Shown: piece after piece, positions 13,302-37,258 of the stretch
Position numbering within the stretch: position 1 is the stretch's first letter
Layout: every line of letters starts with the position of its first letter
NCBI GenBank assembly: GCA_015060705.1
Contig: SUXY01000029.1
Location: 1-38,278, forward strand
Source of the DNA: Bacteroides sp.
GTDB taxonomy: Bacteria; Bacteroidota; Bacteroidia; Bacteroidales; Bacteroidaceae
DNA length: 38,278 nt
Direction of reading: 5' to 3'
The notes under the pieces: model-generated
The model's input: only the letters and a program-made list of their open reading frames with translations
What the model was told of the DNA's origin: nothing
The model's database searches: none
Position numbers and translations under genes: made by a program

Positions 13302-15269
13302 TTACCAACCTTCATTCTGAACGGCATCCAAACCAAACGCTGTACGAGTATCCAAGAAATCTTGGTCAATAGGGAACAAATAACGTCTTTCTGTAAAGTT
13401 ACGGTTTGCACTATTCAATAATGTTACTTGTCCAATTAACAATTTGGTACGGTCGCGACTGATTTCAATCTTATATGCCGGGCGGTCAAGGTCGGCAATG
13501 ATGCCACCCGGTGTACGGCCGTGATTAGCATAGCCACCATACTTACCCCAACGCAAATAGCTGTAATAGATGTCACCACCTTCGTTACACATTTCGCAGT
13601 TACGCTCGCGGATGTAGTCTGCCCATGCTTCTTCTTCAGTAGTAGCAGTAGAAGGAGTCAAACCACCGTGAGCTACACGGGTTGCATTCAAGGCTTCAAC
13701 AGCAGCAGGGATGTTTTTCTTTAGCAACTGTGCTTCTGCCAAGTTCATGTAGGCTTCACCAAGACGTGCCAAATTAAAGTGAAGGGCCACTTTACTTGCA
13801 TGATAGGCACGTGGTTCCGGGTTTTCAATATTACTCTTTCTCCAATAGTAACCGGTTACAGTATTGTACCAACCACCGTCTTCCTTGTCACGTACACCCT
13901 GTGAAAGGTTACCGCCCAAGTTGGTTTCGATGGTTTCATTCATCCAAGTGGACTTGTCGTGAACGATTGCAGTATAGAAGCGCTTGTCACGACCTTGATA
14001 CATCAAGTCGCTAAGGTCGCGTGTTGCACCTTCATTCAATTGGTGATAACGCAGGAATGTGTCATAACCGTCCTTGGTTTGGCTCAAATCCTGTGGAGTA
14101 GGCATACGGCGTGGGTCACCGTTTATTTGACTGTACTGGTCTACTTGACCGGCTTCTGTAACACTGCTTGCATCAAGCACTGTCACGTTATTCAGATATT
14201 GCGAAGTTTCATACCAAGGCAAGGCTTCGCCTGTCAACTCGTCTGTTACCAAATAATGGTCTACCAAGTCTTGAGTAGGGAAATAGATAGCCCAACCTTC
14301 GAAAGTCTGGCCATTGGCTTGCTTTAAGGCTGTCGGACTCATGGAGTTGTTTACATTATCGGTAGAGATGTTTGGATAAGTACGCATCAACTCGTCAAAG
14401 CTGGATACTTGGGTATTATCCTTGTTACGGTAGTAAGCCCAAAGAATTTCCGGATTGTACAAGTCTGTTTCATTCCACATACTCTTGTTGGGAGCCAAAC
14501 CGGTAGCCAAAGAAATACCACTGTTGTTGACAACATCGTTGGCTGCATTTACGGCAATGTCCAAATATGATGCATCCTTTGTATAAGCATATGCCTGAAG
14601 AGCCGCTCTACTCAAGAATACTTTAGCTGCCCATTTTGTAGGAAGACCAGATGAATTTTCTGCGGGAAGACCATCGGCTGCAACTTTCAAATCTTCAATG
14701 ACATATTTGTAGCTTTCAGCCACGTTGCTTGTCATCGGTATATTGGCAGCTTCCGGGTTTTCGGTGTCGAGAACCATAGTAATCGGTACAAATCTACCTA
14801 CGGAACGTGCTTCATGGAAGAAGATGAGACCACGGAGGAACTTGGCTTGTGCTGTCAAGCTTGCCTTCTCATCTTCACTCAATGTTTCATTGGCTTCCAC
14901 GTTGGAGATAACCAAGTTACATTTTCTCAGCATACCCGGCATACCGTTATTCTTGGTTCCCCATGAATCGTAAATGCTGATACCCAATTCGGTGGTAACA
15001 CCATCAATACCTTCATTTACTTGTGAACACTTGATTGAGTTTGGAGTACGAGACTCCCATACGATAGAACTACCTGAACCGGCATAACCACAATTTTGGA
15101 TTACACCGTCATAGATACTGTTGATAAATGCTTCAACGGTTGCCTTGCTGCTCCAAATGACTTCACCTGTAAAGCTGGAAGCCGGGTTTGTGTCCATGGT
15201 GTCGATACACGACGGCATGGTTACGGCAAGCGTCAAACCTAAGAATCCATATTTGAATATATTTTTCAT
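13302..15269 (-). CDS. SusD/RagB-family outer-membrane nutrient-binding lipoprotein
   Basis: This 655-residue lipoprotein (MKNIFKYGFLGLTLAVTMPSC, Cys21) has the RagB/SusD fold. An N-terminal SusD-like region is visible around LRGLIFFHEARSVGRFVPI, and the C-terminal RagB part contains YMNLAEAQLL, followed by IRERNCEMCNEGGDIYYSYLRWG and RRYLFPIDQDFL. It forms the lid of a SusC transporter on the cell surface and captures ligand for uptake. It lies 12 bp after susC. The substrate cannot be read from the sequence, and no sugar-cleaving gene directly adjoins it. Confidence 0.93.
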   Translation of the reverse strand: MKNIFKYGFLGLTLAVTMPSCIDTMDTNPASSFTGEVIWSSKATVEAFINSIYDGVIQNCGYAGSGSSIVWESRTPNSIKCSQVNEGIDGVTTELGISIYDSWGTKNNGMPGMLRKCNLVISNVEANETLSEDEKASLTAQAKFLRGLIFFHEARSVGRFVPITMVLDTENPEAANIPMTSNVAESYKYVIEDLKVAADGLPAENSSGLPTKWAAKVFLSRAALQAYAYTKDASYLDIAVNAANDVVNNSGISLATGLAPNKSMWNETDLYNPEILWAYYRNKDNTQVSSFDELMRTYPNISTDNVNNSMSPTALKQANGQTFEGWAIYFPTQDLVDHYLVTDELTGEALPWYETSQYLNNVTVLDASSVTEAGQVDQYSQINGDPRRMPTPQDLSQTKDGYDTFLRYHQLNEGATRDLSDLMYQGRDKRFYTAIVHDKSTWMNETIETNLGGNLSQGVRDKEDGGWYNTVTGYYWRKSNIENPEPRAYHASKVALHFNLARLGEAYMNLAEAQLLKKNIPAAVEALNATRVAHGGLTPSTATTEEEAWADYIRERNCEMCNEGGDIYYSYLRWGKYGGYANHGRTPGGIIADLDRPAYKIEISRDRTKLLIGQVTLLNSANRNFTERRYLFPIDQDFLDTRTAFGLDAVQNEGW

Positions 15270-15281
15270 AACTGTGTCTAA

Positions 15282-18200
15282 TTAAAATCCTAAATTAAGA
15301 GTAAACGCCAATGTTCTTTCAATCGGATAGCCATAACCGCCGGTATCTGAGTTTTCCGGGTCAAGACCATACTTGGTTGCTTCAGAGATAGTGAACAAGT
15401 TTTGTCCGGAGATACCTACCTTACATCTGCTCAACCAACCTACCTTCTTCAAGAGCTTGTACTTGAAGTCGTAACCGAATTGGAAGTCCTTCATACGCAG
15501 GTATGCACCATCTATCAACCAGAAGTCGCTGGTCTGATAGTTGTTGGCTGCATTCAACTGGCGGTTTGAAGTCAAACGAGGATATTGGGCATTTCTATTG
15601 TCTGGTGTCCAATAATCTGTCTGATAGTCAAAAGCAATAGGCATTACACCGGTACGGTCACTGTCGATATTGTTTCCGTACAAGTGGAAGCTGGTGGAAC
15701 CTTGGAACAAGGTGCTGAAGTAGAAGCCCTTGTAGCTCAGGTTGATGTTGATACCGAACTGACCGCGTGGCTTCTTGTTGTTACCTAGACGACGACGGTC
15801 TTCATTGGTAATCTGTCCGTCACCATTGGTATCTTCGTACTTAACGTCACCGGCTGTCAAGTAACCGGAGTTGTAAGCGTTGATGAAACCGGCAGAGTTA
15901 TATACATCTTCTGCACTGGTGTAATATCCCAAGTTGTGCAACATTAATGAATGGAATCCTTTTTGCTGTTGGCTTCTTTGATAAGGATTCAATACGCTAG
16001 ATTGTGCTTCACCTTCGTTCAAAGCCCAAAGTTCATTGAAGTAAGTGAAGTTGGCAGAAACGTCATACTTGAAGTCACCGATAGTTTCTCTCCAACCCAA
16101 TTGCGCTTCGATACCGGCACGACGATGTTCGCTTCTAGACTTAACTTTCGGCATACTTACACCGATTACCTGATTCAGGTAGCTTTCGGCTGTAGGTGAT
16201 GTCAAGTAACCCTTTGTCGAATAATAGAAGTAGTCGAACGAACCGTAAAGTCGGCTATTCAAAGAAGCGAAGTCGAAACCGAAGTCCATCTGCTTGGTGG
16301 TGTACCATGTCAAGTCTGGAGATGCCAAGATACCTTCGCTAAAGCCCGGTTGGTATTGACCATTCAATACGAATGCTTGAGAGCTATACTTGTAAGTGGT
16401 CATGTATGAATAACGGCCGGCTGCTGAGTCCTGACCGGTTTCACCGTAAGAAGCACGGAGCTTCAAGCTGTTCAGGATATTTCTTTCTACCAAGTCCTGC
16501 ATGAATTCTTCTGCTGTTACTACCCATCCAAGAGAACCGCTGAAGAAAGTACCCCAACGCTTGCCCGGAGCGAAGCGGTCTGAACCGTCGTGACGGATGC
16601 TGCCTTCTACATAGTACTTGTTGTCATAGCTATACTTCACCTGACCAATCCATGCGGCACGACCTAATTCAGCTTCAGCTGTAGATGTCTTGTTTTCGTA
16701 TGCATCTTGTTCTTCCAACAAACCACCATTGGTTTGGGTATTAGCATCACCAATACCGATTTGGTCGATGTTGAATGCATAGTTGTCACGCTGCAACCAA
16801 TAACCTTCATTCTTTTCGTAGTATTGTTCGAAACCTGCTAAAGCGGAGATGGAGTGTTTCCCAAAATCCTTGGCATATTCGATGAATGCTTGATTGGTAA
16901 ATGAATAACCATTGGAATTTTCATAGCGAAGCAATGGCTTGTTGGCATATTGCGGAGTTTCCGATTCCCAGTCGTATTGGGCAGCATCCTTACGCCACTT
17001 TTTGGTTGAATTGGAATAGTAACGGTAGTTGCTGGCTGCACGAACCTTCAAGCCTTCTACCCAAGGTACTGTCCAAATCAATTCACCCTTACCATTGATG
17101 ACATTGCTGATGGTACGATTGTAACCAGCATCCTTGGCAGTTTCAGCTACCGGATTATCAGTAATGTTGTAAGGTAAACCGAACTTGTTCACACCCGGTA
17201 TACTAGGCAACTTATCGTTGATGTGTGAGAATACTTGATAGTAACTTTCTGCAGTAGATGTGTATGGGTGAGTCTGGTGCTGACGATAACCGTCGATGGT
17301 AGCGTTCACCTGCAAACCGATGGCTTCGATGTTTGAGCTTTGAGCCAAACGGAAGTTGGTACGCTTCATCCAGTGGTTGTCGTTCTTGTAGAGCGAGTTT
17401 TGGTTAACGTGACCCAACGATACATAGTAACGGTTGCTCTCGTTACCACCTGTCAAACGGATTGTATGCTTCTGTTGCGGTGCCCAATCGTTCAATACCA
17501 GGCTACGCCAGTCTGTATTGTTGAAGTTCAAAGGATCTGTACCATTCTTGAAGTGGTTCAGTGCTTCTTGAGTGTATGTAGGTTCCAGACCGTCGTTTTC
17601 ACGGGCAATGTTACCATAGATAGCTCGGTCATAAGCTGCAAGTTTTTCCGGCCAGATACTTGGCTGTGAGAGACTCATGTTGAAGTCGTATTCTACAGTG
17701 GCTTTACCAGCCTTACCTTTTTTAGTTTGTACCTGAATGATACCGTTGGTTGCGCGAGAACCGTACACGGCAGTGGCCGACGCGTCCTTCAAAATGGACA
17801 TGGCTTCGATGTCATCAGCAGACAAATTGGCAAAGTCATCAGATGAACGGATGACACCGTCAATTACATAGATAGGGTCACCACCCCCACGGATAGAGAT
17901 GGCTGGCTTGGAGTTGATACCACCACCCGATGCTTGAACAATCAAACCTGGAGAACGACCGGCCAAACCTTGGGCTAGATTGGTAACCGGCATGTTAGAA
18001 ATCTGTTCTGCCTTTACAGTAGAAACAGAAGCAATCAAGTCACGCTTGCTAGTGCTGGTGTAACCTACTACTACCACTTCGTCCAACTGTTCGGTGTCTT
18101 CTTCCATAGTGAGGTTCATGTGCTGAGCAGAAGCAGCGATGGTGATGGTCTTGTAACCTACATAAGAGATTTCAAGCATGTCACCTACCTTGGCTTCGAT

Positions 18201-18479
18201 TTCGAAGTTACCGTCGAAGTCGGTTACTACACCATTGGTAGTACCCTTCACTACAACAGCCGCACCGATGACACCGAAACCGGTGTTGTCGATTACCGTA
18301 CCTTTGATTTTTGTAGTCTGCTGTACCATTTCAACAGCATCAGCATGACTAACATCGGCAAGAGCAACTTGCGGAGATGCGCATAACAGCAAAGAGCAAA
18401 GTCCTACTCCTGCCATTTTCGAGTAAGTGAGGCCATAAGGTTTGCCCAACTTACGGAGTGAATAAAAATTTTTAGTCAT
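15282..18479 (-). CDS. SusC/RagA-family TonB-linked outer-membrane transporter
   Basis: This 1065-residue protein has a long signal region (cleavage near residue 41), then a carboxypeptidase-regulatory-like domain (about 57-128) with the VVVKGTTNGVVTDFDGNFEI phrase. A TonB-box-like DEVVVVGY (133-140) follows. The plug domain (about 145-250) contains LAGRSPGLIVQ, SIRGGGDPIYVIDGVI and DASATAVYGSRATNGII. The rest is a beta-barrel ending in LAFTLNLGF. It imports a glycan or peptide ligand with its SusD partner, powered by TonB. No STN signalling domain is visible. No hybrid two-component system or ECF sigma factor is in the window, so its regulator is elsewhere. Confidence 0.95.
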   Translation of the reverse strand: MTKNFYSLRKLGKPYGLTYSKMAGVGLCSLLLCASPQVALADVSHADAVEMVQQTTKIKGTVIDNTGFGVIGAAVVVKGTTNGVVTDFDGNFEIEAKVGDMLEISYVGYKTITIAASAQHMNLTMEEDTEQLDEVVVVGYTSTSKRDLIASVSTVKAEQISNMPVTNLAQGLAGRSPGLIVQASGGGINSKPAISIRGGGDPIYVIDGVIRSSDDFANLSADDIEAMSILKDASATAVYGSRATNGIIQVQTKKGKAGKATVEYDFNMSLSQPSIWPEKLAAYDRAIYGNIARENDGLEPTYTQEALNHFKNGTDPLNFNNTDWRSLVLNDWAPQQKHTIRLTGGNESNRYYVSLGHVNQNSLYKNDNHWMKRTNFRLAQSSNIEAIGLQVNATIDGYRQHQTHPYTSTAESYYQVFSHINDKLPSIPGVNKFGLPYNITDNPVAETAKDAGYNRTISNVINGKGELIWTVPWVEGLKVRAASNYRYYSNSTKKWRKDAAQYDWESETPQYANKPLLRYENSNGYSFTNQAFIEYAKDFGKHSISALAGFEQYYEKNEGYWLQRDNYAFNIDQIGIGDANTQTNGGLLEEQDAYENKTSTAEAELGRAAWIGQVKYSYDNKYYVEGSIRHDGSDRFAPGKRWGTFFSGSLGWVVTAEEFMQDLVERNILNSLKLRASYGETGQDSAAGRYSYMTTYKYSSQAFVLNGQYQPGFSEGILASPDLTWYTTKQMDFGFDFASLNSRLYGSFDYFYYSTKGYLTSPTAESYLNQVIGVSMPKVKSRSEHRRAGIEAQLGWRETIGDFKYDVSANFTYFNELWALNEGEAQSSVLNPYQRSQQQKGFHSLMLHNLGYYTSAEDVYNSAGFINAYNSGYLTAGDVKYEDTNGDGQITNEDRRRLGNNKKPRGQFGININLSYKGFYFSTLFQGSTSFHLYGNNIDSDRTGVMPIAFDYQTDYWTPDNRNAQYPRLTSNRQLNAANNYQTSDFWLIDGAYLRMKDFQFGYDFKYKLLKKVGWLSRCKVGISGQNLFTISEATKYGLDPENSDTGGYGYPIERTLAFTLNLGF

Positions 18480-18561
18480 AGTAATAAATTTAATTAGATA
18501 AATTCATGTAGTTTAAATTCCTTTTTTCTGTTAACATAGGTTGTTTATTCTCATAGGCATA

Positions 18562-18599
18562 TAGTTGGTTAAAGGTTTTATAGTTGGTTAAAGGTTTTA
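18562..18599. repeat. Perfect 19-bp tandem duplication upstream of susC
   Basis: TAGTTGGTTAAAGGTTTTA occurs twice without a gap (18562-18580 and 18581-18599), about 85-120 bp upstream of the susC start. It could be a paired regulator-binding site or a slippage product. No consensus TAnnTTTG box is seen between it and susC. Confidence 0.9.
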
Positions 18600-18608
18600 T
18601 TATTCTTG

Positions 18609-18631
18609 GTAAGTTCCCCCGGAACTTACAA
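18609..18631. repeat. Left copy of a 22-bp inverted repeat with palindromic core
   Basis: GTAAGTTCC (18609-18617), CCC, GGAACTTAC (18621-18629) form a 9-bp stem. Positions 18610-18631 are identical to the reverse complement of 25215-25236. The core triplet is CCC here and GGG in the other copy, so the two copies face opposite ways. They bracket the HU/smalltalk/primase module. Confidence 0.92.
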
Positions 18632-18743
18632 CAAGCCTAGTATGCCTTCAGGATACCTCTTTGAAGGATTGGAGAGAAGAAAAAAACAGCGGGAAGCCTC
18701 AGTCATGCAACTGGAGCTTCCCGCTGTTCTGATGGAAGGAAAG

Positions 18744-19226
18744 TTAATAGTTCACTTCAAAACAGGGACAATCTTTCTGTACCTCCGGAAGGTCCCGATG
18801 CCCCACGATACGGGCTTCGGGATAGTCTTCCTTCAAGCGTACCAACAAGCGTTGGAGGGTCAGTTTCTGTTCCGGAGTACGGGTATCTTCCGGCCGGTCG
18901 CGGGCATTCAGTCCGCCCTCGTAGCAGATGCCGATGCTGTGGGCGTTATAGCCCGTGGCATGCGCCCCTACTTGGTAGAGAGGTCGACCGCGGTGAACCA
19001 CCCCGTCGCGGGTGATGTAGTAGTGATAGCCGATGTCGGCGAAGCCACGGGCACGATGGTCACGACGGCAGTCGTCCACGGTGTAACACTGCGTGGCGCG
19101 GGTGGCACTACAATGGATCACGATCAGATCGATGCGGCGGTAGTTCTGGTACTGGCTGCTATGTAGAATGGCGTTACTCATTTTTTTGATGTATGATGTA
19201 TGATTTGCCATCTGGATGGTATTCAT
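18744..19226 (-). CDS. N-acetylmuramoyl-L-alanine amidase (T7 lysozyme-like)
   Basis: This 160-residue protein of the amidase_2/PGRP fold cleaves the amide between MurNAc and L-Ala in peptidoglycan. It shows LIVIHCSAT (first zinc His), GYHYYITRDG, YNAHSIGICYEGG and GHRDLPEVQKDCPCF (second zinc His and the Cys ligand). The loop between that His and Cys is shorter than in many Bacteroides relatives. No signal peptide is evident, as in phage-type amidases that are released by other means. Starts at 19226, 19211 and 19181 are all possible. It follows the smalltalk gene by 10 bp. Confidence 0.88.
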   Translation of the reverse strand: MNTIQMANHTSYIKKMSNAILHSSQYQNYRRIDLIVIHCSATRATQCYTVDDCRRDHRARGFADIGYHYYITRDGVVHRGRPLYQVGAHATGYNAHSIGICYEGGLNARDRPEDTRTPEQKLTLQRLLVRLKEDYPEARIVGHRDLPEVQKDCPCFEVNY

Positions 19227-19236
19227 ATCTCAAGCA

Positions 19237-19344
19237 TTAATTGCAGGCTTGCAGACCGAAGGTGGTCGCTACTGCGGTTAATACGGTAATTACGATTTTC
19301 AGGATTTTACTCCAGATGTTGTTAGTTGGTCTTTCGGTTTCCAT
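19237..19344 (-). CDS. Smalltalk family small protein
   Basis: This 35-residue ORF reads METERPTNNIWSKILK, then a hydrophobic helix (IVITVLTAVATTFGL), then QACN. The layout (charged start, WxKIL, one membrane-like helix ending in a Cys) matches the smalltalk proteins that sit between HU-like and amidase genes in Bacteroides. Its function is unknown. A membrane-active or holin-like role beside the amidase is only an inference. It overlaps no other gene, and the amidase ATG follows after 10 bp. Confidence 0.85.
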   Translation of the reverse strand: METERPTNNIWSKILKIVITVLTAVATTFGLQACN

Positions 19345-19397
19345 ACGGTTTTAGAGTTTTAGATTAATCATTCTATTTTGTCATTCATTTACCCAGT

Positions 19398-19515
19398 TTG
19401 TCATTCAGAGCGAAGCGAAGAATCTCGAGTACATATAGTGGGTGTTACCGAGATTTTTCGGACAGAGTCCTCAACAACACGTCTTCACTCCACTACGTTC
19501 CATTCTGAATGACAA
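19398..19515. repeat. GTCATTC repeat element with inverted ends
   Basis: TTGTCATTCAG (19398-19408) and CTGAATGACAA (19505-19515) are perfect inverted ends. Inside, AATCTCG (19421-19427) and CGAGATT (19449-19455) are also inverted. Related sequence recurs at 22943-23045, and the ends also recur in the hairpin at 20791-20843. It is a small dispersed non-coding element filling the HU-smalltalk gap. Confidence 0.8.
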
Positions 19516-19528
19516 TTACTAGGGAGAA

Positions 19529-20020
19529 TTATTCACCCGTTTGAGTACCTTCTGTTGATTCCTCTTCATCCACGATGGTAACGGTAGATTCCCCGTTCTT
19601 CACGGCCTTCAAGACCTTCTTCTGAACCGAGCGGATAGCCACCAAGTTGAAGGTTGCATCCTCCTTCAGGTTAAGGAACGAGAATCCACGCTCCCAGTTC
19701 ACGTTCACTGCCTTGATGTGAATTTCCGGATTGAACTCATTGGCGGTAAGCGCACCTTCGCTAGAGAAGGAAACATAGAAATTGCCCAAGTCACCCAACT
19801 GTACCTTGGTACCGTTCAGCAACATTTCGCGGAGGCAGTCCACCGCCATGGTGAGTACGGCAGCAATGTCGGAACGTTTGTACACACAACCATGCGTGGC
19901 GATGTGCTTGGCGAACTGGTCGAGGTTCATCACTTCATTGGTCTGGGCGCTCGCATAGTACTTGGCAGGCTCGTTCTTTTCCATCGGATTGTAACGGGCA
20001 GAAACACTGTAATTCAGCAT
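19529..20020 (-). CDS. HU-like DNA-binding protein (HU-HIG type)
   Basis: This 163-residue protein starts MLNYSVSARYNPMEKNEP. It continues with KYYASAQTNEVMNLDQFAKHIA, a helical dimerisation part, and VQLGDLGNFYVSFSSEGA, the beta-strand section of the HU/IHF fold. A C-terminal acidic tail ends in EEESTEGTQTGE. This is the extended HU family typical of Bacteroides, larger than the 90-residue HU. It probably bends DNA or organises the local element. A longer TTG start at 20071 is less likely. Upstream lies a 23-bp-period palindromic array (20075-20151), which could be its binding site or that of another factor. Confidence 0.88.
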   Translation of the reverse strand: MLNYSVSARYNPMEKNEPAKYYASAQTNEVMNLDQFAKHIATHGCVYKRSDIAAVLTMAVDCLREMLLNGTKVQLGDLGNFYVSFSSEGALTANEFNPEIHIKAVNVNWERGFSFLNLKEDATFNLVAIRSVQKKVLKAVKNGESTVTIVDEEESTEGTQTGE

Positions 20021-20059
20021 AATACGTAAGTTTTTTTTAATGGTTAAACAATCGTTTTT

Positions 20060-20151
20060 TTTGATGTACATCTTTCGCCGGAAAGACGTATCGTCTTACC
20101 TCGACAAGACGTATGGTCTTACTGGAGCAAGACGTATCATCTTCCGGCGAC
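20060..20151. repeat. Three 23-bp tandem units, each with an AAGACGTATCGTCTT-type palindrome
   Basis: Units start at 20083, 20106 and 20129, exactly 23 bp apart. Their heads are AAGACGTATCGTCTT, AAGACGTATGGTCTT and AAGACGTATCATCTT. The array is closed by a 9-bp inverted repeat, TCGCCGGAA at 20075-20083 and TTCCGGCGA at 20142-20150. A degenerate unit with the palindrome GATGTACATC (20063-20072) precedes it. The array lies between the divergent HU and DUF4248 genes, and a second such array is at 37177-37258. Confidence 0.9.
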
Positions 20152-20237
20152 AATTCAAAGATACGACATGCGGAGGACGTGTTTGTGAACCCTTGTCCGA
20201 TGGTATGAAAGGATGTGAGATAGAGTAGGTTAAAATG

Positions 20238-20268
20238 TTGTATATGAGGTAGATTATTTGTATCTTTA
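20238..20268 (+). promoter_or_regulatory. Promoter of the DUF4248 gene
   Basis: TTG (20238-20240), a 20-bp spacer, then TATCTTTA (20261-20268) gives a near-consensus Bacteroides promoter 22 bp before the ATG. The last base differs from TAnnTTTG. Confidence 0.5.
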
Positions 20269-20290
20269 TCTCATTAAAACGAGAAAAGAC

Positions 20291-20524
20291 ATGAAAGTAG
20301 AAGAAGAAAAAGAATGGCGAATCCGCCCTTATTACAAAAGTGAACTGGCACAGGCCTATGCACCTTACCTGGCCACCGGCTCTGCCTTGAACCGCTTGGC
20401 GCTATGGATTAGACTCAATGAACCGCTCAGCACCGCCTTGAAGCAAACGGGCTACCGCAGCAAACAGCGAACTTTTACCTCCAAGCAAGTCGCCCTGATT
20501 TTTGAGCACCTGGGGGAACCGTGA
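20291..20524 (+). CDS. DUF4248 family protein
   Basis: This 77-residue protein starts MKVEEEKEWRIRPYYKSELA and continues ATGSALNRLALWI, ending TSKQVALIFEHLGEP. The layout and the EHLGEP end match DUF4248, a small family of probable winged-helix type found next to HU-like and primase or VapE genes in Bacteroides. Its function is unknown; binding DNA as a regulator or replication accessory is an inference. It is transcribed away from HU, with the 23-bp array between them. The ATG at 20291 is preferred over the upstream start at 20258. Confidence 0.82.
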   Translation: MKVEEEKEWRIRPYYKSELAQAYAPYLATGSALNRLALWIRLNEPLSTALKQTGYRSKQRTFTSKQVALIFEHLGEP

Positions 20525-20553
20525 GTGAAACTGCTGATTTATAGAGCAAATAA

Positions 20554-20585
20554 TTTGGAAAACTAATCGGATTTTCGTACGTTTG
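20554..20585 (+). promoter_or_regulatory. Consensus promoter of the 52-residue peptide gene
   Basis: TTTG (20554-20557), a 20-bp spacer, then TACGTTTG (20578-20585) is a full match to the Bacteroides -33/-7 consensus. Transcription would start about 20 bp before the ATG at 20613. Confidence 0.75.
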
Positions 20586-20612
20586 CGATGTAAAATACTA
20601 AACAGAATCATT

Positions 20613-20771
20613 ATGGGAACAAAAGAAACAACAAAAGCGAGTAACGTCAAGATACAAGACTTACGGGACTCTGAAACCAAAAAGGAAACCAAAAAGCCTT
20701 TCAAACTGACTATCGTATCTAAAGAAGAATTGGAAAAACTACGCATTCCGGTATATCCTTACATTTTATAA
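20613..20771 (+). CDS. Unrecognised 52-residue peptide with its own promoter
   Basis: The ORF starts MGTKETTKASNVKIQDL and has a lysine/glutamate-rich centre. It ends in a more hydrophobic KLTIVSKEELEKLRIP followed by VYPYIL. There is no signal peptide, no membrane segment and no Cys. I do not recognise a family. It is preceded by a textbook promoter and followed by a strong 17-bp hairpin, which together argue for a real single-gene transcript. The charged leader-like N-terminus and aromatic tail could suit a modified peptide or a protein-protein adaptor, but no modifying enzyme is adjacent. Confidence 0.65.
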   Translation: MGTKETTKASNVKIQDLRDSETKKETKKPFKLTIVSKEELEKLRIPVYPYIL

Positions 20772-20790
20772 TATATATGTAATAGCTTCT

Positions 20791-20843
20791 AACACTATTT
20801 GTCATTCAGACGACCGAAAGGAAGAAGAATGACAAGTAGTGTT
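20791..20843. terminator. 17-bp hairpin between convergent genes
   Basis: 20791-20807 pairs with 20827-20843 over 17 bp with a single G-T pair and a 19-nt loop. It lies between the peptide gene (plus) and the end of the primase gene (minus), so it probably terminates both. Its stem contains GTCATTC, linking it to the dispersed repeat at 19398-19515. Confidence 0.75.
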
Positions 20844-20869
20844 AACTGATATATCATTCCCTTTTTTTA

Positions 20870-22669
20870 TCAAGTAAAGATTTCCCCCTGTACGGTGCAT
20901 TGATCCAGTTTCTTCCCTAGCCAACAACTATTGTCGAACGGGACCTTGGGGTTGGGAAGGTCGAGGGACTTGGGAGCAATGAAGTTCACGAAGCGGCCGT
21001 TGTGCGTGTTGTAGTAGAACGACGCTACACCCGGCTGACCGAGGTGTCGGAACTTCACCTTCTGCACATGTATCCGCGTGACTCCCTGCGTACGGTTCCG
21101 CTCGATAGCAAGACCGAAATCGGCTTTGTTGAAGAACGATGCCGAACCGCTGATGTCGTACATCGTGGGAACGGGATACAGCCCCGTGGCTGGATCCTTC
21201 TTCATCTTGGTAGGGTGAGCAGCAAGTATCACCAGCACCTGTCGCCGACGGGCAAAACTCCGGAGCTTTTCCAGAAACTCGCTGATGTATTGCGTCTCGC
21301 TCTGTCCTGTCGGGATGAGATGCTCCAGGCAGTTGTACGGGTCGAGAATGAGTACCCGGATACCCTTTCGCCGTACCAGCATCTCCGCCTTTTCCAATAT
21401 CGTATCCACGCGATAGCCTTCTTCGGGCAGGATATCGAAGAAATTGCGCGAGAGATAGCGCAATCCCGATTCATACTCCAGTTCACTCATCACCCCTTGT
21501 TGGAAAGGCTTCCCGACCAACTTTTCCATGAGCTTGGGGATGTGCAGGGTTATGGGGAAATTCTCCGGACTGAACCACGCACAGCGCCAGTCGTACCGAA
21601 TGGATAGGCGTATCGCTACCTCGTCCAGGAACTCACTCTTGCCATCACCGGGAATCCCTGTGACAATCATCAGACGACCCGTTTCCACGCTCAAATGGTC
21701 GTCCAGTTCGCCCATGCCGAGGACGGCTCCTTTCTGAAGACCTTTTTCGAAAAGAGCGGCCAGGTCGTCTTCTACATCGGCAGCGGTGAACACGCCTTCC
21801 ATGGGTACTTCCGGTGCTTCGTTCAAGGCTTTTTGCAAGGATGCTACACCACCTTTCATCAGCAGTTCGTTGGCATCCTTGCAGCCGGGACCATAGCTCA
21901 CGATACGACAGCGTTCTTCGCCCAACCGACGGACGAGTTCGGCGCGGAGTTCCAGTCCTTTGGTATCGGTATCGGCGGCGATGTACACCGTCCGCTTGTT
22001 TTCGAAATGCGTTTCCATGAAATCGTCGAGGAAGGTCAGGTTGGTCTGGGCACCGTTGGGTACGCTGACTACATCGTCCCGTCCTGCCACGAGGAAGGCC
22101 AAGGCATCCATTTCGCCTTCGGTGATGATACATTCCGAGGTATCGCGGATGTGGTCGATGCGCCACGGCACGAGTCGGGCACCGCTTTCGAGCATGAAGT
22201 TTTTTGCTCCGTCGCGGTACTTGCGGTTGATGAGTTCGCCGTCGACCGTATAGGGAAAGACGATGCAGCGTTCCACGTTGCCTGTTTGTGGGAGGGTACG
22301 GCATACCTTGGTGATGTTTTCTTTGGTCAGCACTTCGGCGGGTATACCTCGGGTAGAAAACCAGGTCCGCATGTTTTCGTCCAGCGGTTGTTCGTTGGTG
22401 AGTGGACCGGGCTTTCTGTAGTCTTTTGGGGCTGGTGGTTGGGGCGCTGCCGTTGCCGGTGTGTGGTATAGCTTTTCGGTTTGTCCGAAGAAGAAGGATT
22501 TTCCACAGTGGTGACAGTGTGCGATGCACTTTTCCCAGTCGACGGACAGGGATTTGTCCCGTTTGTTGGTTCTCTCGTTGTGGCAGGCCGGACAGTACTG
22601 TTTTTCCTTCCGTTTGCCGGTTGTGGCGGTTAGGCCAAGTTCTTTTAGTTTGTTGTAATCGATTTTCAT
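20870..22669 (-). CDS. TOPRIM primase-helicase (T7 gp4-like)
   Basis: This 599-residue protein starts MKIDYNKLKELGL; an ATG at 22690 would add seven residues. A zinc finger (C26-x2-C29 ... C52-x2-C55) is followed by the TOPRIM domain with TEGEMDAL (Glu184) and AADTDTKG (Asp233, Asp235). The RecA/DnaB-like helicase domain has Walker A GIPGDGKS (338-345), ILDPYN as Walker B, and ILAAHPTK. This order is the same as in T7 gp4 and mitochondrial Twinkle. It should prime and unwind DNA for replication of the module or a related element. It is the only complete replication enzyme in the module. Confidence 0.88.
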   Translation of the reverse strand: MKIDYNKLKELGLTATTGKRKEKQYCPACHNERTNKRDKSLSVDWEKCIAHCHHCGKSFFFGQTEKLYHTPATAAPQPPAPKDYRKPGPLTNEQPLDENMRTWFSTRGIPAEVLTKENITKVCRTLPQTGNVERCIVFPYTVDGELINRKYRDGAKNFMLESGARLVPWRIDHIRDTSECIITEGEMDALAFLVAGRDDVVSVPNGAQTNLTFLDDFMETHFENKRTVYIAADTDTKGLELRAELVRRLGEERCRIVSYGPGCKDANELLMKGGVASLQKALNEAPEVPMEGVFTAADVEDDLAALFEKGLQKGAVLGMGELDDHLSVETGRLMIVTGIPGDGKSEFLDEVAIRLSIRYDWRCAWFSPENFPITLHIPKLMEKLVGKPFQQGVMSELEYESGLRYLSRNFFDILPEEGYRVDTILEKAEMLVRRKGIRVLILDPYNCLEHLIPTGQSETQYISEFLEKLRSFARRRQVLVILAAHPTKMKKDPATGLYPVPTMYDISGSASFFNKADFGLAIERNRTQGVTRIHVQKVKFRHLGQPGVASFYYNTHNGRFVNFIAPKSLDLPNPKVPFDNSCWLGKKLDQCTVQGEIFT

Positions 22670-22746
22670 ATTTTTATGTATTCTTTTCATTTTTCTTTTG
22701 CCCGAACAAAAGAAAAACGAAACAAAAAGAAAATTCGCCGTCTGCA

Positions 22747-22857
22747 TTTTTTTGCCTACTCCGGCGCTTTATTCCGCTAAACAAAAAGAACTCGCTTCGC
22801 TCAAACAGCTTTTTGTTTTTAACGCTCCATAAAGCACCTCCGCTTAACGGCAAAAAA
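22747..22857. repeat. Long imperfect hairpin centred on AACTCGCTTCGCTCAAACAG
   Basis: The left arm begins TTTTTTTGCC and includes CGCTTTATT and AACAAAAAG. The right arm carries CTTTTTGTTT, ATAAAGCAC and GGCAAAAAAA in the reverse order. The central 20 bases recur in reverse complement, with two changes, inside the hairpin at 23145-23250. The base is next to the primase start region. Confidence 0.75.
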
Positions 22858-22942
22858 AAGAGGCCGGACCTTAATGTTTTCTTGATTTGGGATGCAATAC
22901 TGCTTCGCTCGTTGCGGTGGGTGTTATTTGTACTCTCTTTCT

Positions 22943-23045
22943 TTTGTCATCCAGAACGGAACGTAGTGGAGTGAAGGATCTCGAATACATTCACGTTAAT
23001 GAATTACTGTATGCCACCGAGATTTTCGTACAGAGTCTTCAACTA
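22943..23045. repeat. Second copy of the GTCATTC/AATCTCG element
   Basis: TTGTCATCCAGAACGGAACG, then GTAGTGGAGTGAAGGATCTC and later ACCGAGATTTTCGTACAGAG parallel the element at 19398-19515. There GAACGTAGTGGAGTGAAG appears on the opposite strand (19483-19500). The copy lies between the two long hairpins. Confidence 0.7.
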
Positions 23046-23144
23046 CTCTCCCCCTTGTGAAGGTGGAGAAAAACGAAACCATCCACCTCAAACAGCGAAG
23101 CGCATTTGAGTTCCCCGTTGGAGACCCGGCATTTAGTGGAGAAG

Positions 23145-23250
23145 CGTGAAGAAATTTTTGCCTTTTCCCGTGAAGAAGAAAAAGCTGTTTGAGCGTTAGC
23201 GAGTTCTTTTTCTTTAGGGAAAAGGTGAAAATTTTAGCTTCGGAACGGGA
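23145..23250. repeat. Long imperfect hairpin centred on CTGTTTGAGCGTTAGCGAGT
   Basis: The left arm (GAAGAAATTTTTGCCTTTTC onwards) pairs with the right arm that ends AAAATTTTAGCTTC, with a few bulges. The loop is the reverse complement of the loop at 22747-22857, while the arm sequences differ. The two elements therefore share the loop and the folding but not the stem bases. Confidence 0.75.
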
Positions 23251-23276
23251 GCCGGCAGTCTTTCTTTTTTGTTATC

Positions 23277-23338
23277 TTTTTTCTTTCTGCTGCCAGAAAG
23301 AAAAAAGTAATAGCGGTCAGAACGAAAAAAGTAATAGC
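23277..23338. repeat. 13-bp hairpin followed by a 15-bp direct repeat
   Basis: TTTTTTCTTTCTG (23277-23289) pairs with CAGAAAGAAAAAA (23294-23306). GAAAAAAGTAATAGC occurs at 23300-23314 and again at 23324-23338, 24 bp apart. It lies 20 bp beyond the stop of the DUF4373 gene and may end that transcript. Confidence 0.7.
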
Positions 23339-23357
23339 ACATTGAGAAAGAAAGAAT

Positions 23358-24239
23358 TCAGAAAACCCATTCCTTCCGCAAAGGATTCCAATTCGCCTGA
23401 TCATTCGGCCTTGGCGGCGCATCATCCGGAATCGGAACATCACAATACGAACGCTTCCCCGTTTCCGGATCCCGAAACTCAAACCGATAAGGATCAAGCA
23501 CCTCCGTTTCACGCAAATAACAAACCAGTTTCTTGAAAGTCGCACTACCCGGAGTATTGAAAAAACAAAAATACCGCTTGGCATCCGTAGGCGACTGAAT
23601 ATCCTTCTCGTTTCCAATAGCCTGCACATGTTGTTTGAAAAGATTTAACACCTCATCGAAACGTCTGACAAAAGCCTGCCCCAATCCACTGCGCATCGCC
23701 ATGATCTCCTTCCATTGCTCCTCCTCTTGAAGCGCATTCACATGACGTTCCCAAGCAGGCGTCTCAGGAATAGAAAAATCACCACCATCATCACCCTTAT
23801 CTTCTTCTTTTGATGATGATGATACTTTTACTTTTACTTTTCCTTTTACTTTATCAAAAGATATTGTATCAGAGGCATTACTGATTTCCAGCGACTTAGC
23901 AGCTCTTTTCTTCTGCTTATACGCCTCAAATCGCGCTCTTCTATCTTCCAAAGGCTTCATCAATTCGTTCAATTTAGGCGAATAAAACGTAAAATCATCG
24001 CAAATAAACAAACCGTAATTGTTTATGATGTTGAGTAGTTTGGGAAGGCGTATGTTCAGTTGTCTTCTCAAGGATTTCAGGTTACGAAAATCGCCGATGT
24101 AATCGTCTTGCGTGCGTAGATACTCCATGACGGCCCAATAAATACCATAACCTGTCATACCTTCTTTCTCGATGAGGTGCATTACTTCCGTAGTGTTCCG
24201 CATACTAACCTCGTGCGGAATGTATTGGTCTCGTTTCAT
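23358..24239 (-). CDS. DUF4373 (Lin1244/Lin1753-like) replication-type protein
   Basis: This 293-residue protein opens with MKRDQYIPHEVSMRNTTEVM, then GMTGYGIYWAVMEYLR, the hallmark of DUF4373, a winged-helix domain found in phage and plasmid replication proteins. A low-complexity linker follows (about 125-150, serine and acidic residues). A C-terminal domain (about 160-260) contains DAKRYFCFFNTPGS and resembles the DUF7833 type. It lies downstream of the unknown 204-residue gene and upstream of the primase gene in the same direction. I infer that it recognises an origin or loads the helicase, but this is not proven. Confidence 0.82.
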   Translation of the reverse strand: MKRDQYIPHEVSMRNTTEVMHLIEKEGMTGYGIYWAVMEYLRTQDDYIGDFRNLKSLRRQLNIRLPKLLNIINNYGLFICDDFTFYSPKLNELMKPLEDRRARFEAYKQKKRAAKSLEISNASDTISFDKVKGKVKVKVSSSSKEEDKGDDGGDFSIPETPAWERHVNALQEEEQWKEIMAMRSGLGQAFVRRFDEVLNLFKQHVQAIGNEKDIQSPTDAKRYFCFFNTPGSATFKKLVCYLRETEVLDPYRFEFRDPETGKRSYCDVPIPDDAPPRPNDQANWNPLRKEWVF

Positions 24240-24269
24240 AATTGATTAATTAAGTTTTTCATAACGCCA

Positions 24270-24277
24270 CAAATGTA
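24270..24277 (-). promoter_or_regulatory. Possible -7 box of the DUF4373 gene
   Basis: On the minus strand TACATTTG matches TAnnTTTG, 30 bp before the ATG at 24239. No -33 TTG is seen at the expected distance, so support is limited. Confidence 0.35.
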
Positions 24278-24285
24278 AGTGATTG

Positions 24286-24900
24286 TCAGCAAAGGATTGC
24301 TTTCTTATAATTCCCATAAATCGACGGTTGTTTCTTCGCAAGAGAAACTACATAACTGTCCGTCAGGAGTAGTTTTTCGGCAGCCGCAAGCATCCCTTGC
24401 CATCGGTCCCATTCCTCGGGTTTCATGGCTCCCGGCAACGGATGATCCGACAGGCACTCCTTGTTCAGGCAATGCAAGTCATATCCCGTCCGCACCACCT
24501 TGTTCAGGTGATTGTTGAACGTTCTTTCCTTGTCTTCCAGCTCGATGCGGCATCCGTCTTTCAGGAAAGAATAATACTGCTTGTTGATTTGGTTATGCTT
24601 CAAGCTGGGCGCCAGACCGAGCTTGATCAAGGCACAGTACACCGACAAGAGGAAATCAGTCTCTCCATAGCCTTCTCCCTCTACTTCCATCAGCCTTGTC
24701 CTTTGATTGAAATGGCAATGATGCAACTGCCCAATGCATTGAGCCAGTTGCTGCCGGTCTACCCAATCGTGGAAGATGTGGGTTTTCGGTCTGCCTTTGC
24801 TTCTGGAAGGAACGGCTTCCGTAGTTTCTGTTGCCAACTGCTTGATGATTGCATCAAGCTCATTTCTCATCGCTTCGAGTTTTCTGATAATTTGTTTCAT
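24286..24900 (-). CDS. Uncharacterised module protein with an AT-hook-like GRPKTH
   Basis: This 204-residue protein begins with a helical stretch (MKQIIRKLEAMRNELDAIIK), followed by a basic RSKGRPKTH segment near residues 52-61 that resembles an AT-hook. The remainder is mixed helix and strand, with NQINKQYYSFLKDGC and ERTFNNHLNKVVRTGYD. I do not recognise a family. Its position at the upstream end of the DUF4373 and primase genes suggests a DNA-binding regulator or replication accessory. It is the rightmost gene before the right inverted repeat. Confidence 0.7.
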   Translation of the reverse strand: MKQIIRKLEAMRNELDAIIKQLATETTEAVPSRSKGRPKTHIFHDWVDRQQLAQCIGQLHHCHFNQRTRLMEVEGEGYGETDFLLSVYCALIKLGLAPSLKHNQINKQYYSFLKDGCRIELEDKERTFNNHLNKVVRTGYDLHCLNKECLSDHPLPGAMKPEEWDRWQGMLAAAEKLLLTDSYVVSLAKKQPSIYGNYKKAILC

Positions 24901-25420
24901 AATCTTGAGTTTTTGCGAGAGAAGAAAGCTGTCAGAAAAACGGCCCGAAGTCTAGAATCCTTCCTCCATCCTGCTTCACTCAAGTAAATCTTTTTTATTA
25001 ATTTTAAAGGTTTTCGAAGGATGAAGTTAAGAAGCATAAATAACATTCAAAAGCGTTTTTATTATGTTTAACAATGGGAACGTTTGCGAAAACAATTTTA
25101 AAGATTGGGTACGTTCTCAAAGTTTAATGGATGTTAACGAAAAAGACGCTAAAGGATAAATATTTTGATAAAAGCATGGTTAATAAAGAATAATTTATTT
25201 TCTTTGCAAATGAATTGTAAGTTCCGGGGGAACTTATCTAGACTACTCTTTCTGATGTTATAACCTCTTGGAAATCAATAATAATAACTTCTACTCAAAC
25301 AATCGTATTCTTTTCGGGTTACAATAAAAATGAAAAAAAGAAGTCCCTTCTAGTCTTCTTGCTTTCACATTCGTGGTTGAATTTTAACCTATGAATTGTT
25401 AATCGATAAAGGAAAGGAAT
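24901..25420. other. 520-bp intergenic region between module and recombinase
   Basis: No gene is supported. The right 22-bp inverted repeat (25215-25236) lies here, preceded by AT-rich sequence. An A/G-rich ribosome-binding-like stretch (AAAGGAAAGG) stands just before the recombinase ATG. I see no clear TAnnTTTG promoter for the recombinase. Confidence 0.7.
25215..25237. repeat. Right copy of the 22-bp inverted repeat
   Basis: TAAGTTCC (25218-25225), GGG, GGAACTTA (25229-25236) form an 8-bp stem. With TTG in front, the 22 bases are the exact reverse complement of 18610-18631. It lies 184 bp before the start of the tyrosine recombinase gene. Confidence 0.92.
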
Positions 25421-26578
25421 ATGGGAAAAATTAAGTATCGACCTGTTTATAATAGAAAGAGAAAACTAAACTCACAGGGTAAAGCGTTACTGCAGGTAGA
25501 AGCCTATCTTTCCGGTAAGAGGGCTTGTTTTTCTACCCACATTTATTTGACACCTCGACAATGGAATGAAAAGCGATGTAAGGTAGTTCATCATCCGGAG
25601 GCAGATTCGTTGAATTACATGCTCCAAGCCTTCGTGATGGAACTGGAACATCGGGAAATGGAGTTGTGGAGGAAAGGAGTGGAGGTTACACTAGAACTGC
25701 TGAAACAAGCATTGCGACCGGAAGCGTCGTCATCGTTTCTGGATTTTGTCAAGTTGGAACTGGATACTGCCCGTCTGAAGGAAAGTACGAGAAAGAATCA
25801 GGAATCCACTTGGAAACTGCTAGGAACCTTCCAACCCAAGCTGAAATTCGAAGGAGTGAGTCTTCGCTTTATTCAGGAGTTTGTAAGCTACATGGAAGGG
25901 AAAGGTTTCGGTATTAATACCATTGCCAAACATTTGAAACATCTGCGAACTTTCGTCAATTGGGCCATAGCCAAAGGCAATATAAAGGACGAGGATTATC
26001 CGTTCCGACGCTACCGGATCAAAATGGAAAACGGTAGACATTCTTATTTGACACCAGAAGAGATGAAACGGCTGGAGGATTTGGATTTGGCTGAAGGATA
26101 CCGGTCGTTACAGCATACCCTGGATGCTTTCTTGTTCTGTTGTTATACAGGGTTGCGCTATTCGGATTTTGTTCATTTATCGGAAAAGAATATGGTCAGC
26201 CTGGAAGGGAAAAGGTGGATTGTCTTTTCTTCTGTGAAGACGGGAGTGGAAGTCCGGCTTCCGGTGTATCTGCTCTTTGATGGAAAGGCATGCCGTCTGT
26301 TGGATAAGTATGAGGGCCATTGGAATGAGTTCTTTTCGCTCAAGTCGAATACTTGTGTGAACCATGAACTTCATAGTATCGGGAAGCTGGCAGGCGTCGA
26401 GAAGCATTTTACTTTTCATACGGCGAGACATACCAATGCTACCTTGTTGATTTATCGTGGGGCGAATATCACTACGGTTCAGAAGTTATTGGGACATCGG
26501 AGCGTTACGACGACTGAAATTTATAGCGAGATTATGGGGAAGACCATTGTGCGGGATTTGACGAAGAGTATTGTGTAA
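25421..26578 (+). CDS. Tyrosine site-specific recombinase
   Basis: This 385-residue integrase-family protein has an N-terminal arm-binding domain (about 1-90), with SGKRACFSTHIYLTPRQWNE typical of Bacteroidetes recombinases. A SAM-like core-binding domain (about 103-200) and a catalytic domain with all expected residues follow: Arg246 in TGLRYSDF, Lys273 in SVKTG, His333 and Arg336 in HTARH, His359 in LLGHRS and Tyr368 in EIYSE. It should therefore be active. It lies just outside the right 22-bp inverted repeat and reads away from it. It could act as an integrase of the module or as an invertase at the repeats. It converges with hemG across a strong shared terminator. Confidence 0.92.
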   Translation: MGKIKYRPVYNRKRKLNSQGKALLQVEAYLSGKRACFSTHIYLTPRQWNEKRCKVVHHPEADSLNYMLQAFVMELEHREMELWRKGVEVTLELLKQALRPEASSSFLDFVKLELDTARLKESTRKNQESTWKLLGTFQPKLKFEGVSLRFIQEFVSYMEGKGFGINTIAKHLKHLRTFVNWAIAKGNIKDEDYPFRRYRIKMENGRHSYLTPEEMKRLEDLDLAEGYRSLQHTLDAFLFCCYTGLRYSDFVHLSEKNMVSLEGKRWIVFSSVKTGVEVRLPVYLLFDGKACRLLDKYEGHWNEFFSLKSNTCVNHELHSIGKLAGVEKHFTFHTARHTNATLLIYRGANITTVQKLLGHRSVTTTEIYSEIMGKTIVRDLTKSIV

Positions 26579-26582
26579 AAGA

Positions 26583-26624
26583 AAAAGAATGTGGATGTGC
26601 GTTTTTACACATCCACATTCTTTT
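26583..26624. terminator. Bidirectional terminator between the recombinase gene and hemG
   Basis: AAAAGAATGTGGATGTG (26583-26599) pairs perfectly over 17 bp with 26608-26624 around an 8-nt loop. The A and T runs at the ends give a U-tract in either direction. It overlaps the hemG stop codon by two bases. Confidence 0.9.
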
Positions 26625-27996
26625 ATGAAGCTATCTCCTTGGCAATTCCTGTTGCCTGTCGGATACGGTCTGCCATACCGATGCCTCCCTTGATGTTTCC
26701 TGCCAGGATGAGGCCCGGGTAGCGGATTTGCAATTCCTCAATCATCTTGAAGCGGGCTTCGCTGCTCTTTTCGTATTGCGGAATCGCCTTCTGATGACGA
26801 TGAATTTTGATCAAGTCCGGTTGGGCATCTGCCGGGAATTTCAGCATGGAATGGATGTTCTTCAGAATCATGTCCTTCAGTTTTTCATCACTCCAATCCA
26901 ACATATCCGCATGTCTTACACCTCCGATGAAGAACGAGAACAAGGCGCCTTCCTCCGGTGAACGGCCCACGAAGCAAGCCGACGGGAAGAGAATACCCAA
27001 TACATCTCTTTTTTCTTTGGAAGGTACCAAGCCGCCGAAGGCTCCGAACTGCAAGCCTCGGGTGTTGTGGAAACCGACACTCGCCTGGATAATCGGAGCA
27101 TAATGCAAGTTGCTGATCTGACCGATGTCTTCCTTCGGAATGAACGGCAAGAGGTCGGGGAGGGCGTATGCTCCACAAGTGGTCACCACCTTGTTGGCGA
27201 TGAGGGATTGTTCGCCCTCTGGAGTACGATAGTTGATGAGCCATTGCTTGTCTTGTGGCTGAATTTTCACTTCGCTTGCCGAGAGGGTAATCTGTTCCTT
27301 TCCAATGGCTTTGACCAAAGCTTCGGCCAATCTTTCCAGACCACCTACGGCAGAGAATACCTTCTTGGTAGCCAGTTTATCGCGTTCGCTCTTCGGGAGT
27401 TTCGCCTTGGCGATGGAACCTTTGATGAAGCTACCGTAATCTTGCTCCAGGTTGTAGAGCTTCGGGAGGGCATGACGAGTCACCAACGTGTGAGGATTGC
27501 CGGCATATACACCCGAAAGGAAAGGGTCGACGGCATAGTCTACGAAGGACTTTCCCAAACGGCGGGCAGCCAGTTCGGCCACCGATTCATCCGGGTTGGT
27601 TCCCTTGGCACGGAAAGGTTCACCCAAGATACGGAACTTGTCGTACAGGGTGAAGAGGGGAGTGGTAACGGCACTCACCAATCCCGATGGAAGAGCATGG
27701 AACTTATTGCCTTTCCAAATCCAACGCTTCTTGGATTCTTCGCGGGCAGTTTCCAAGGTACAGTCCGGTGAGAGCGCTGCAAAGAGTTCGGCTACTTCGG
27801 GATAGGATACTACACCGGTATTGGGACCGCTTTCGTACACGAATCCGTTTTCCTGGAAGGTACGGATCTGTCCGCCTGCCCGGTCTTGTCTTTCGATGAT
27901 CTGTATCTTCTTGCCGGCACGGGTGAGCCAGAAAGCGGTGGTGAGTCCGGTCAGTCCGGCTCCGATGATTGCTATGTCGATGTGTGTATGATTCAT
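26623..27996 (-). CDS. hemG: Protoporphyrinogen oxidase (HemY-type)
   Basis: This 457-residue flavoprotein of the amine-oxidase superfamily oxidises protoporphyrinogen IX to protoporphyrin IX, or coproporphyrinogen to coproporphyrin in related types. The N-terminal FAD-binding GAGLTGLTTA motif (12-21), ERQDRAGGQIRTF, YESGPNTG and the C-terminal LAGNIKGGIGMADRIRQA are visible. It lies 30 bp downstream of hemN at the end of the receptor-MFS-hemN operon. The name hemG is used as in many Bacteroides annotations, although the protein is of the FAD HemY type, not the flavodoxin-like HemG of Escherichia coli. Confidence 0.9.
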   Translation of the reverse strand: MNHTHIDIAIIGAGLTGLTTAFWLTRAGKKIQIIERQDRAGGQIRTFQENGFVYESGPNTGVVSYPEVAELFAALSPDCTLETAREESKKRWIWKGNKFHALPSGLVSAVTTPLFTLYDKFRILGEPFRAKGTNPDESVAELAARRLGKSFVDYAVDPFLSGVYAGNPHTLVTRHALPKLYNLEQDYGSFIKGSIAKAKLPKSERDKLATKKVFSAVGGLERLAEALVKAIGKEQITLSASEVKIQPQDKQWLINYRTPEGEQSLIANKVVTTCGAYALPDLLPFIPKEDIGQISNLHYAPIIQASVGFHNTRGLQFGAFGGLVPSKEKRDVLGILFPSACFVGRSPEEGALFSFFIGGVRHADMLDWSDEKLKDMILKNIHSMLKFPADAQPDLIKIHRHQKAIPQYEKSSEARFKMIEELQIRYPGLILAGNIKGGIGMADRIRQATGIAKEIAS

Positions 27997-37002: not shown

Positions 37003-37137
37003 TTGCCGGGGTTGCCGACCTTGCCGGCCTTTTACATAACTTCTATTGACTATATTTTATAATATAATATTTTATAATAAACGATACTCTATCATAATAT
37101 ATATAAAAACAGGTGGCAAGGTCGGCAACCCCGGCAA
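37003..37137. repeat. Opposed TTGCCGnnn arrays around an AT-rich core
   Basis: Three 9-bp units, TTGCCGGGG, TTGCCGACC and TTGCCGGCC, run from 37003 to 37029. The first 23 bases recur as a perfect reverse complement at 37115-37137. The 80 bp 37031-37110 contain only 11 G/C bases. The whole could form a long cruciform. Confidence 0.92.
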
Positions 37138-37176: not shown

Positions 37177-37258
37177 GTGCCAGTACGGGCTTCCGCCGAA
37201 GGATGTATGGTCTTATCGTAGTAAGACGTATCGTCTTTCTACGAATGCCCGTACAGCG
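37177..37258. repeat. Second copy of the 23-bp palindromic array, partly degenerate
   Basis: AGGATGTATGGTCTT starts at 37200 and AAGACGTATCGTCTT at 37223, exactly 23 bp apart, and both match the heads at 20083-20143. The preceding unit (37177-37199) ends CTTCCGCCGA, close to CTTCCGGCGA in the other array. An outer inverted repeat GTACGGGC (37183-37190) and GCCCGTAC (37247-37254) encloses them. Confidence 0.85.

Follow-up and report, generated by a model that had tools for sequence, protein, structure and literature searches.

The stretch of DNA analyzed here, called the window below, comprises the 38,278 nucleotides of contig SUXY01000029.1 (positions 1 to 38,278, forward strand) from assembly GCA_015060705.1 of Bacteroides sp. 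It contains a susC/ragA gene for an outer-membrane receptor with the adjacent susD gene, a gene for a tyrosine recombinase and, between susC and the recombinase gene, a module of phage-like genes enclosed by two copies of a 22-bp inverted repeat (Table 1). The left copy at 18610–18631 reads TAAGTTCCCCCGGAACTTACAA, and the right copy at 25215–25236 is its exact reverse complement, as a sequence-only reading of the window had stated; the bounds of 18609 to 25237 given there proved too wide by one base on each side, and the unit measures 6627 bp from repeat to repeat. Re-measuring also confirmed that the recombinase gene starts 184 bp outside the right copy and that the left copy lies 130 bp from the susC start. 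Judging from the comparisons described below, segment 18610–25236 is probably an invertible susC-promoter segment (a susC inverton) of the tyrosine-recombinase type found in Bacteroidales, with the phage-like module inside.

Table 1. Features of the susC locus and of the enclosed module (coordinates are those of the window).
Feature	Position	Strand	Remarks
susD, next after susC	13302–15269		
susC/ragA outer-membrane receptor, proposed switched gene	15282–18479	-	TIGR04056, E 1.6e-246
susC leader	18480–18609	-	GCCTATG motif at 18552–18558; resembles L051 leader (0/300 shuffles as good)
Left recombination site (predicted)	18610–18631	+	arms AAGTTC/GAACTT, core CCCCG; outer edge faces susC; similarity to L051 ends at inner end 18631
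Intrinsic-terminator-like hairpin and U run	18683–18730	-	reads toward susC as assembled; -33.8 kcal/mol for 18670–18745
N-acetylmuramoyl-L-alanine amidase	18744–19226	-	PF01510, phrog_822
Smalltalk protein, 35 amino acids	19237–19344	-	NF033879, PF20096
HU-family DNA-binding protein	19529–20071	-	PF18291
Three palindromic AAGACGTATNNTCTT repeats, period 23	20083–20143	+	between divergent HU and DUF4248 genes
DUF4248 protein	20258–20524	+	PF14053
Toprim and DnaB-like primase-helicase	20870–22747	-	phrog_239, 1.7e-91
Lin1244/DUF7833 replication-initiator-like protein	23358–24239	-	family match
204-amino-acid protein, without family match	24286–24900	-	
Imperfect -7 box TTTCTTTG	25199–25206	+	right inner edge; aligns with L051 box TAATTTTG; now points away from susC; putative promoter role
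Right recombination site (predicted)	25215–25236	-	exact inverted copy; + strand core CGGGG
Tyrosine recombinase, proposed invertase	25421–26578	+	PF00589, PF17293, PF13102

A chance origin of the repeat was rejected because its 22 bp exceed the longest exact inverted repeat obtained when the window was simulated 60 times with an order-1 Markov model (17 bp) and because its extended palindrome TAAGTTCCNNNGGAACTTA is rare across genomes: it occurred in two of 61 genomes of the genus, namely the own genome and, with another core, G034, and among 399 genomes drawn from the family (G034 not included) in the own genome only. Within the own genome, AAGTTCCNNNGGAACTT was present at these two positions only. 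Other long exact inverted pairs in the window measure 23 bp (37003–37025/37115–37137) and 19 bp (19483–19501/22958–22976). A megablast search of plasmid records with 18480–26620 gave zero matches, two exact versions of the site were absent from the viral contigs searched, Rfam reported nothing at gathering scores for 18000–26700, and no tRNA gene was detected in the window.

The repeats were compared with those at orthologous susC loci. Locus L051 has the same gene order as the window, with a susC gene of 79–80% and a recombinase of 56% identity, and the module is absent. Its two sites have the cores CACAA and TTGTG, enclose 192 bp and lie 209 bp from each other. Site and susC are about 124 bp apart in L051 vs. 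131 bp in the window (both counted from the 17-base core), site and recombinase gene 182 vs. 185 bp. DNA similarity between the two loci extends through the susC leader and the left repeat up to its inner end. No similarity to L051 could be detected in the interval between right site and recombinase gene, for which 44 of 300 shuffles scored as well. At L225, whose susC is 82% identical, two one-mismatch sites at -322 and -143 are 179 bp apart, again without the module. A further relative, L229 (susC 69%), has one site, beyond which the contig ends. Because both closest orthologues carry a cargo-free site pair, the module was most simply added in the lineage of the window; as far as these alignments tell, it is a passenger inside the segment, and the repeats belong to the susC switch. 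No site was present in the 1.1–1.4 kb of upstream DNA of the more distant susC relatives L230 (56%) and L231 (53%). The motif GCCTATG between site and start codon is common to the susC leaders of the window, L051, L089, L225 and L229.

Site pairs of the same kind were found throughout the genus. Searching the 61 genomes for exact AAGTTC-N5-GAACTT sites gave 19 pairs within 20 kb on the same contig, and in 14 of them the sites were inverted with reverse-complementary cores, while identical direct cores occurred in none; shuffling the cores gave 0.23 matched inverted pairs on average and never more than 3. All five unmatched pairs came from one cluster, G015:C5, in which each of the two sites without an exact counterpart can be paired, at one mismatch, with a site of matching core. 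The five-base cores thus vary between loci and are matched within each pair, and such variation is compatible with the overlap region of a tyrosine recombinase. The short segments examined mostly lie directly before susC genes, the exceptions being L132 and L157. At L132 (G015:C5, 3902–5609), three consecutive short site pairs, each with its own core, have no susC match nearby. A different arrangement was seen at L127 (G020:C1), where an inverted site pair at 4229 and 11573 spans 7.3 kb next to a recombinase of 31% identity; by eye, the segment contains tail-fibre-like and transposition-helper-like genes and is perhaps a prophage with the same site type.

The recombinase encoded beside the right site contains arm-binding, core-binding and catalytic domains. 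Residues R246, K273, H333, R336, H359 and Y368, which we take to be the catalytic positions, do not vary among six aligned relatives, in agreement with the full catalytic set noted earlier from the sequence. Relatives at E values of 1e-40 or better were present in 45 of the 61 genomes, own included, and a susC match lies beside the recombinase gene in 42 of the 53 loci fetched. A contig search with the recombinase gave two more distant loci, which were left aside. At 21 of 44 loci tested, an inverted repeat links the DNA upstream and downstream of the recombinase gene; it falls within or close to the starts of the susC genes on either side, an arrangement expected for a shufflon. The shorter pattern AGTTC-N5-GAACT, a site class associated with B. 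fragilis, occurs near the recombinase gene at 18 of 45 loci, window included, vs. two occurrences in 313,657 bp outside. These 45 loci are the 53 fetched plus the window, minus nine without a susC match (L067, L071, L072, L073, L075, L078, L083, L085 and L086); L046 and L052, likewise without a susC match, were kept.

Taken together, two inverted sites with palindromic arms and an identical core lie upstream of susC, next to a recombinase with intact catalytic residues from the family that adjoins such sites in relatives. Comparison of the sequences gives good support to the view that the segment acts, or once acted, as an invertible switch of susC. The recombinase would recognize the AAGTTC/GAACTT arms of both sites, and strand exchange across the matched central bases would invert everything between them. 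A phage-like module, also known at other loci, would have entered the segment, so that the switch would now turn 6.6 kb, and inversion would place a promoter-like edge about 130 bp upstream of susC and turn the gene ON. How the module entered, that the recombinase is active and that a promoter exists are points that we infer from these features. The switch would be ordinary in kind and unusual in its cargo, a susC inverton apparently grown to 6.6 kb by a phage-like module.

To turn susC ON, the segment would need an outward promoter at one end. We regard TANNTTTG as a Bacteroides -7 box. Among 17 segments, taken from a selection of 15 loci rather than a full census, 11 (11 of 16 besides the window) have a perfect outward copy no more than 80 nt from one site, and none has it at both ends; as background, it occurred in 169 of 6000 windows and in 368 of 6800 shuffled ends. 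The box points toward susC in five loci (L051, L128, L130, L133 and L160) and away from it in four (L131, L134, L145 and L158), as switches caught in both states would show. The right inner edge of the segment, which carries an imperfect box, could be aligned to the edge of L051 that bears the promoter, a score matched by 9 of 500 shuffles, and to the right edge of L089, where 5 of 500 did as well; for the left inner edge the corresponding counts were 64 and 435 of 500. Since the strong terminator-like hairpin near the left site faces susC and the promoter-like edge faces away, we predict that susC is OFF in the assembled orientation and would be ON after inversion.

The sequence-only reading had offered two accounts of the repeats, namely inversion of the whole segment with a change of the DNA upstream of susC, and a mobile unit with terminal repeats. 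If module and repeats formed an element moved by the adjacent recombinase, the repeats should travel with it, and the pair should be absent from an empty locus. Relatives of the module genes indeed sit at several other places in the genus, some of the genes are phage-like, and the recombinase gene adjoins one end, but L051 and L225 keep the site pair without the module, and at L051 the recombinase gene stays beside the sites. Moreover, of the 19 module loci found elsewhere, not one showed two matching sites even when one mismatch was allowed, although in at least eight of them (L113, L114, L115, L116, L123, L147, L149 and L152) the contig breaks off at the module or close to it, where a site could be hidden. 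We consider the mobile element very unlikely on these grounds. The occurrence of the module without the repeats in other genomes, which that reading had named as a refutation, counts against the mobile unit only; the predicted whole-segment inversion is well supported by comparison. It is still more improbable that the palindromes are operators or RNA hairpin elements of leaders without any role in recombination. Each copy is near-palindromic, and the left one lies within the susC leader, yet an operator needs no private inverted cores such as those that vary by locus and remain reverse-complementary in 14 of 19 pairs, and the sites cluster beside recombinase genes.

Several observations weigh against a working switch or against its generality, and the promoter is its weakest point. 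A perfect TANNTTTG is present at neither inner edge of the window segment. The edge similarities are weak and fail correction for multiple tests (12 comparisons), and the left inner edge also slightly resembles the right edge of L051 (23 of 500 shuffles as good), which would fit the inverted state. The susC relatives L227 (73%) and L228 (69%) lack a site in 1.1–1.4 kb of upstream DNA, and 27 of the 45 recombinase loci lack an exact AGTTC-N5-GAACT, including L047, the second paralogue in the own genome G000. The 96 exact sites found in the 61 genomes are not far above the 77 of a reversed-pattern control; single sites are thus mostly due to chance, and the pairing carries the signal. Some of these points would suit a former susC inverton that is locked or dying, in which insertion of the module did away with the promoter and left the sites as relics incapable of turning: besides the missing perfect box, the segment greatly exceeds the short ones in length. 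Nevertheless, the two 22-bp repeats have stayed identical, and the recombinase retains its catalytic residues. Elsewhere in the genus, inverted pairs lie 15.8 and 18.2 kb apart, so that length alone need not prevent turning, and the module-free L225 likewise has no perfect box. Therefore, we regard a locked inverton as unlikely and prefer a segment that still inverts.

One other gene-bearing case was found on the 5.3-kb contig L089, where genes for VapE-like and DUF4248 proteins lie between two sites, one exact and one with a mismatch, with matching cores and set within a 116-bp inverted repeat (98%). The DUF4248 protein is 76–77% identical to that of the window and is its closest relative in the genus outside the own genome. 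The 3.8-kb cassette contains another replication protein than the window and lies beside a different susC (39%). The start of this gene in the left flank was confirmed by Pfam, and the right flank encodes 49 residues only, without Pfam identification, which we read as a probable second susC since the leader is common to both sides. The right end carries a perfect outward promoter match; L089 may, however, be a misassembly. At L130, about 3 kb separate a module fragment from a susC segment of 407 bp. It is conceivable, if doubtful at present, that DUF4248 phage-like modules repeatedly settle in susC invertons, so that the phase state of the receptor and the reading direction of a replication/lysis-type module would switch together; L089 would then choose between two divergent outer-membrane genes.

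The proposed arrangement can be compared with known switches. The Hin switch of Salmonella likewise has an invertible segment larger than a promoter, with an outward promoter at one end, but its serine recombinase is encoded inside its own invertible segment, whereas the window has a tyrosine recombinase outside. In B. fragilis, the tyrosine recombinase Tsr0667 controls inversions at SusC/SusD clusters and at other invertible regions (Nakayama-Imaohji 2009, via PMC4747536). The proposed invertase of the window resembles it by description, as a tyrosine recombinase beside susC and susD; the excerpt of PMC4747536 mentions no phage-like module in a segment such as the window has. An intergenic ragA/susC shufflon of the same species adjoins an invertible promoter and shares inverted repeats at the starts of susC homologues and large inverting segments next to that promoter, but it swaps alternative susC/susD genes, whereas the window would switch one susC with a phage-like module as cargo (PMC5729914). 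Surveys describe many invertible regions near SusC/SusD (PMC10939037) and groups of invertons tied to nearby invertases and to a Bacteroides promoter motif (PMC11892184). The short invertons of gut Bacteroidales resemble the window in having inverted repeats around a promoter motif, invertase genes nearby and, in many cases, susC/susD neighbours; the window segment differs by its 6.6 kb and the gene module inside (PMC11892184, PMC10939037). SusCD orthologues are also listed among inverted regions in a review (PMC12632263), capsule promoters with palindromic repeats adjoin integrases (PMC12118408), and names of module proteins are scattered through transcriptome tables (PMC10434189). Among the titles listed in a limited search of the open-licence literature, none concerned a module of phage-like genes within an inverton.

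If the proposal holds, the susC phase-variation system also includes gene-bearing segments of several kb, which could escape surveys designed for short invertible promoters. It becomes testable whether the cargo slows or biases the switch, whether a terminator within the segment defines the OFF state, and whether invertons are preferred landing sites of phage-like modules. The fixed AAGTTC/GAACTT arms with pair-matched five-base cores, as seen across the 61 genomes, would provide a simple sequence test for such switches in assemblies.

As to the module itself, four of its proteins (amidase, HU, primase-helicase and Lin1244/DUF7833) match phage families, and relatives of the primase at about 50% identity occur on viral contigs. 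The triplet of AAGACGTATNNTCTT repeats is also present in L089 (1285–1345), and one further copy lies at 37223 of the window; of 223 loci searched, five were positive, representing three copies of this window, L089 and L047, the last with a single repeat. L047 (G000:C54, 9848–10993), mentioned above for its lack of an exact site, encodes a recombinase of 54% identity beside another susC. Dispersed repeats resembling repetitive extragenic palindromic (REP) elements occur within the module at 19397–19516, 20790–20830 and 22944–22983, as well as in the short segment of L051 and at other loci. Finally, the copies of the 23-bp inverted pair at 37003–37025 and 37115–37137 are separated by 89 bp and lie near the stray AAGACGTAT repeat at 37223.

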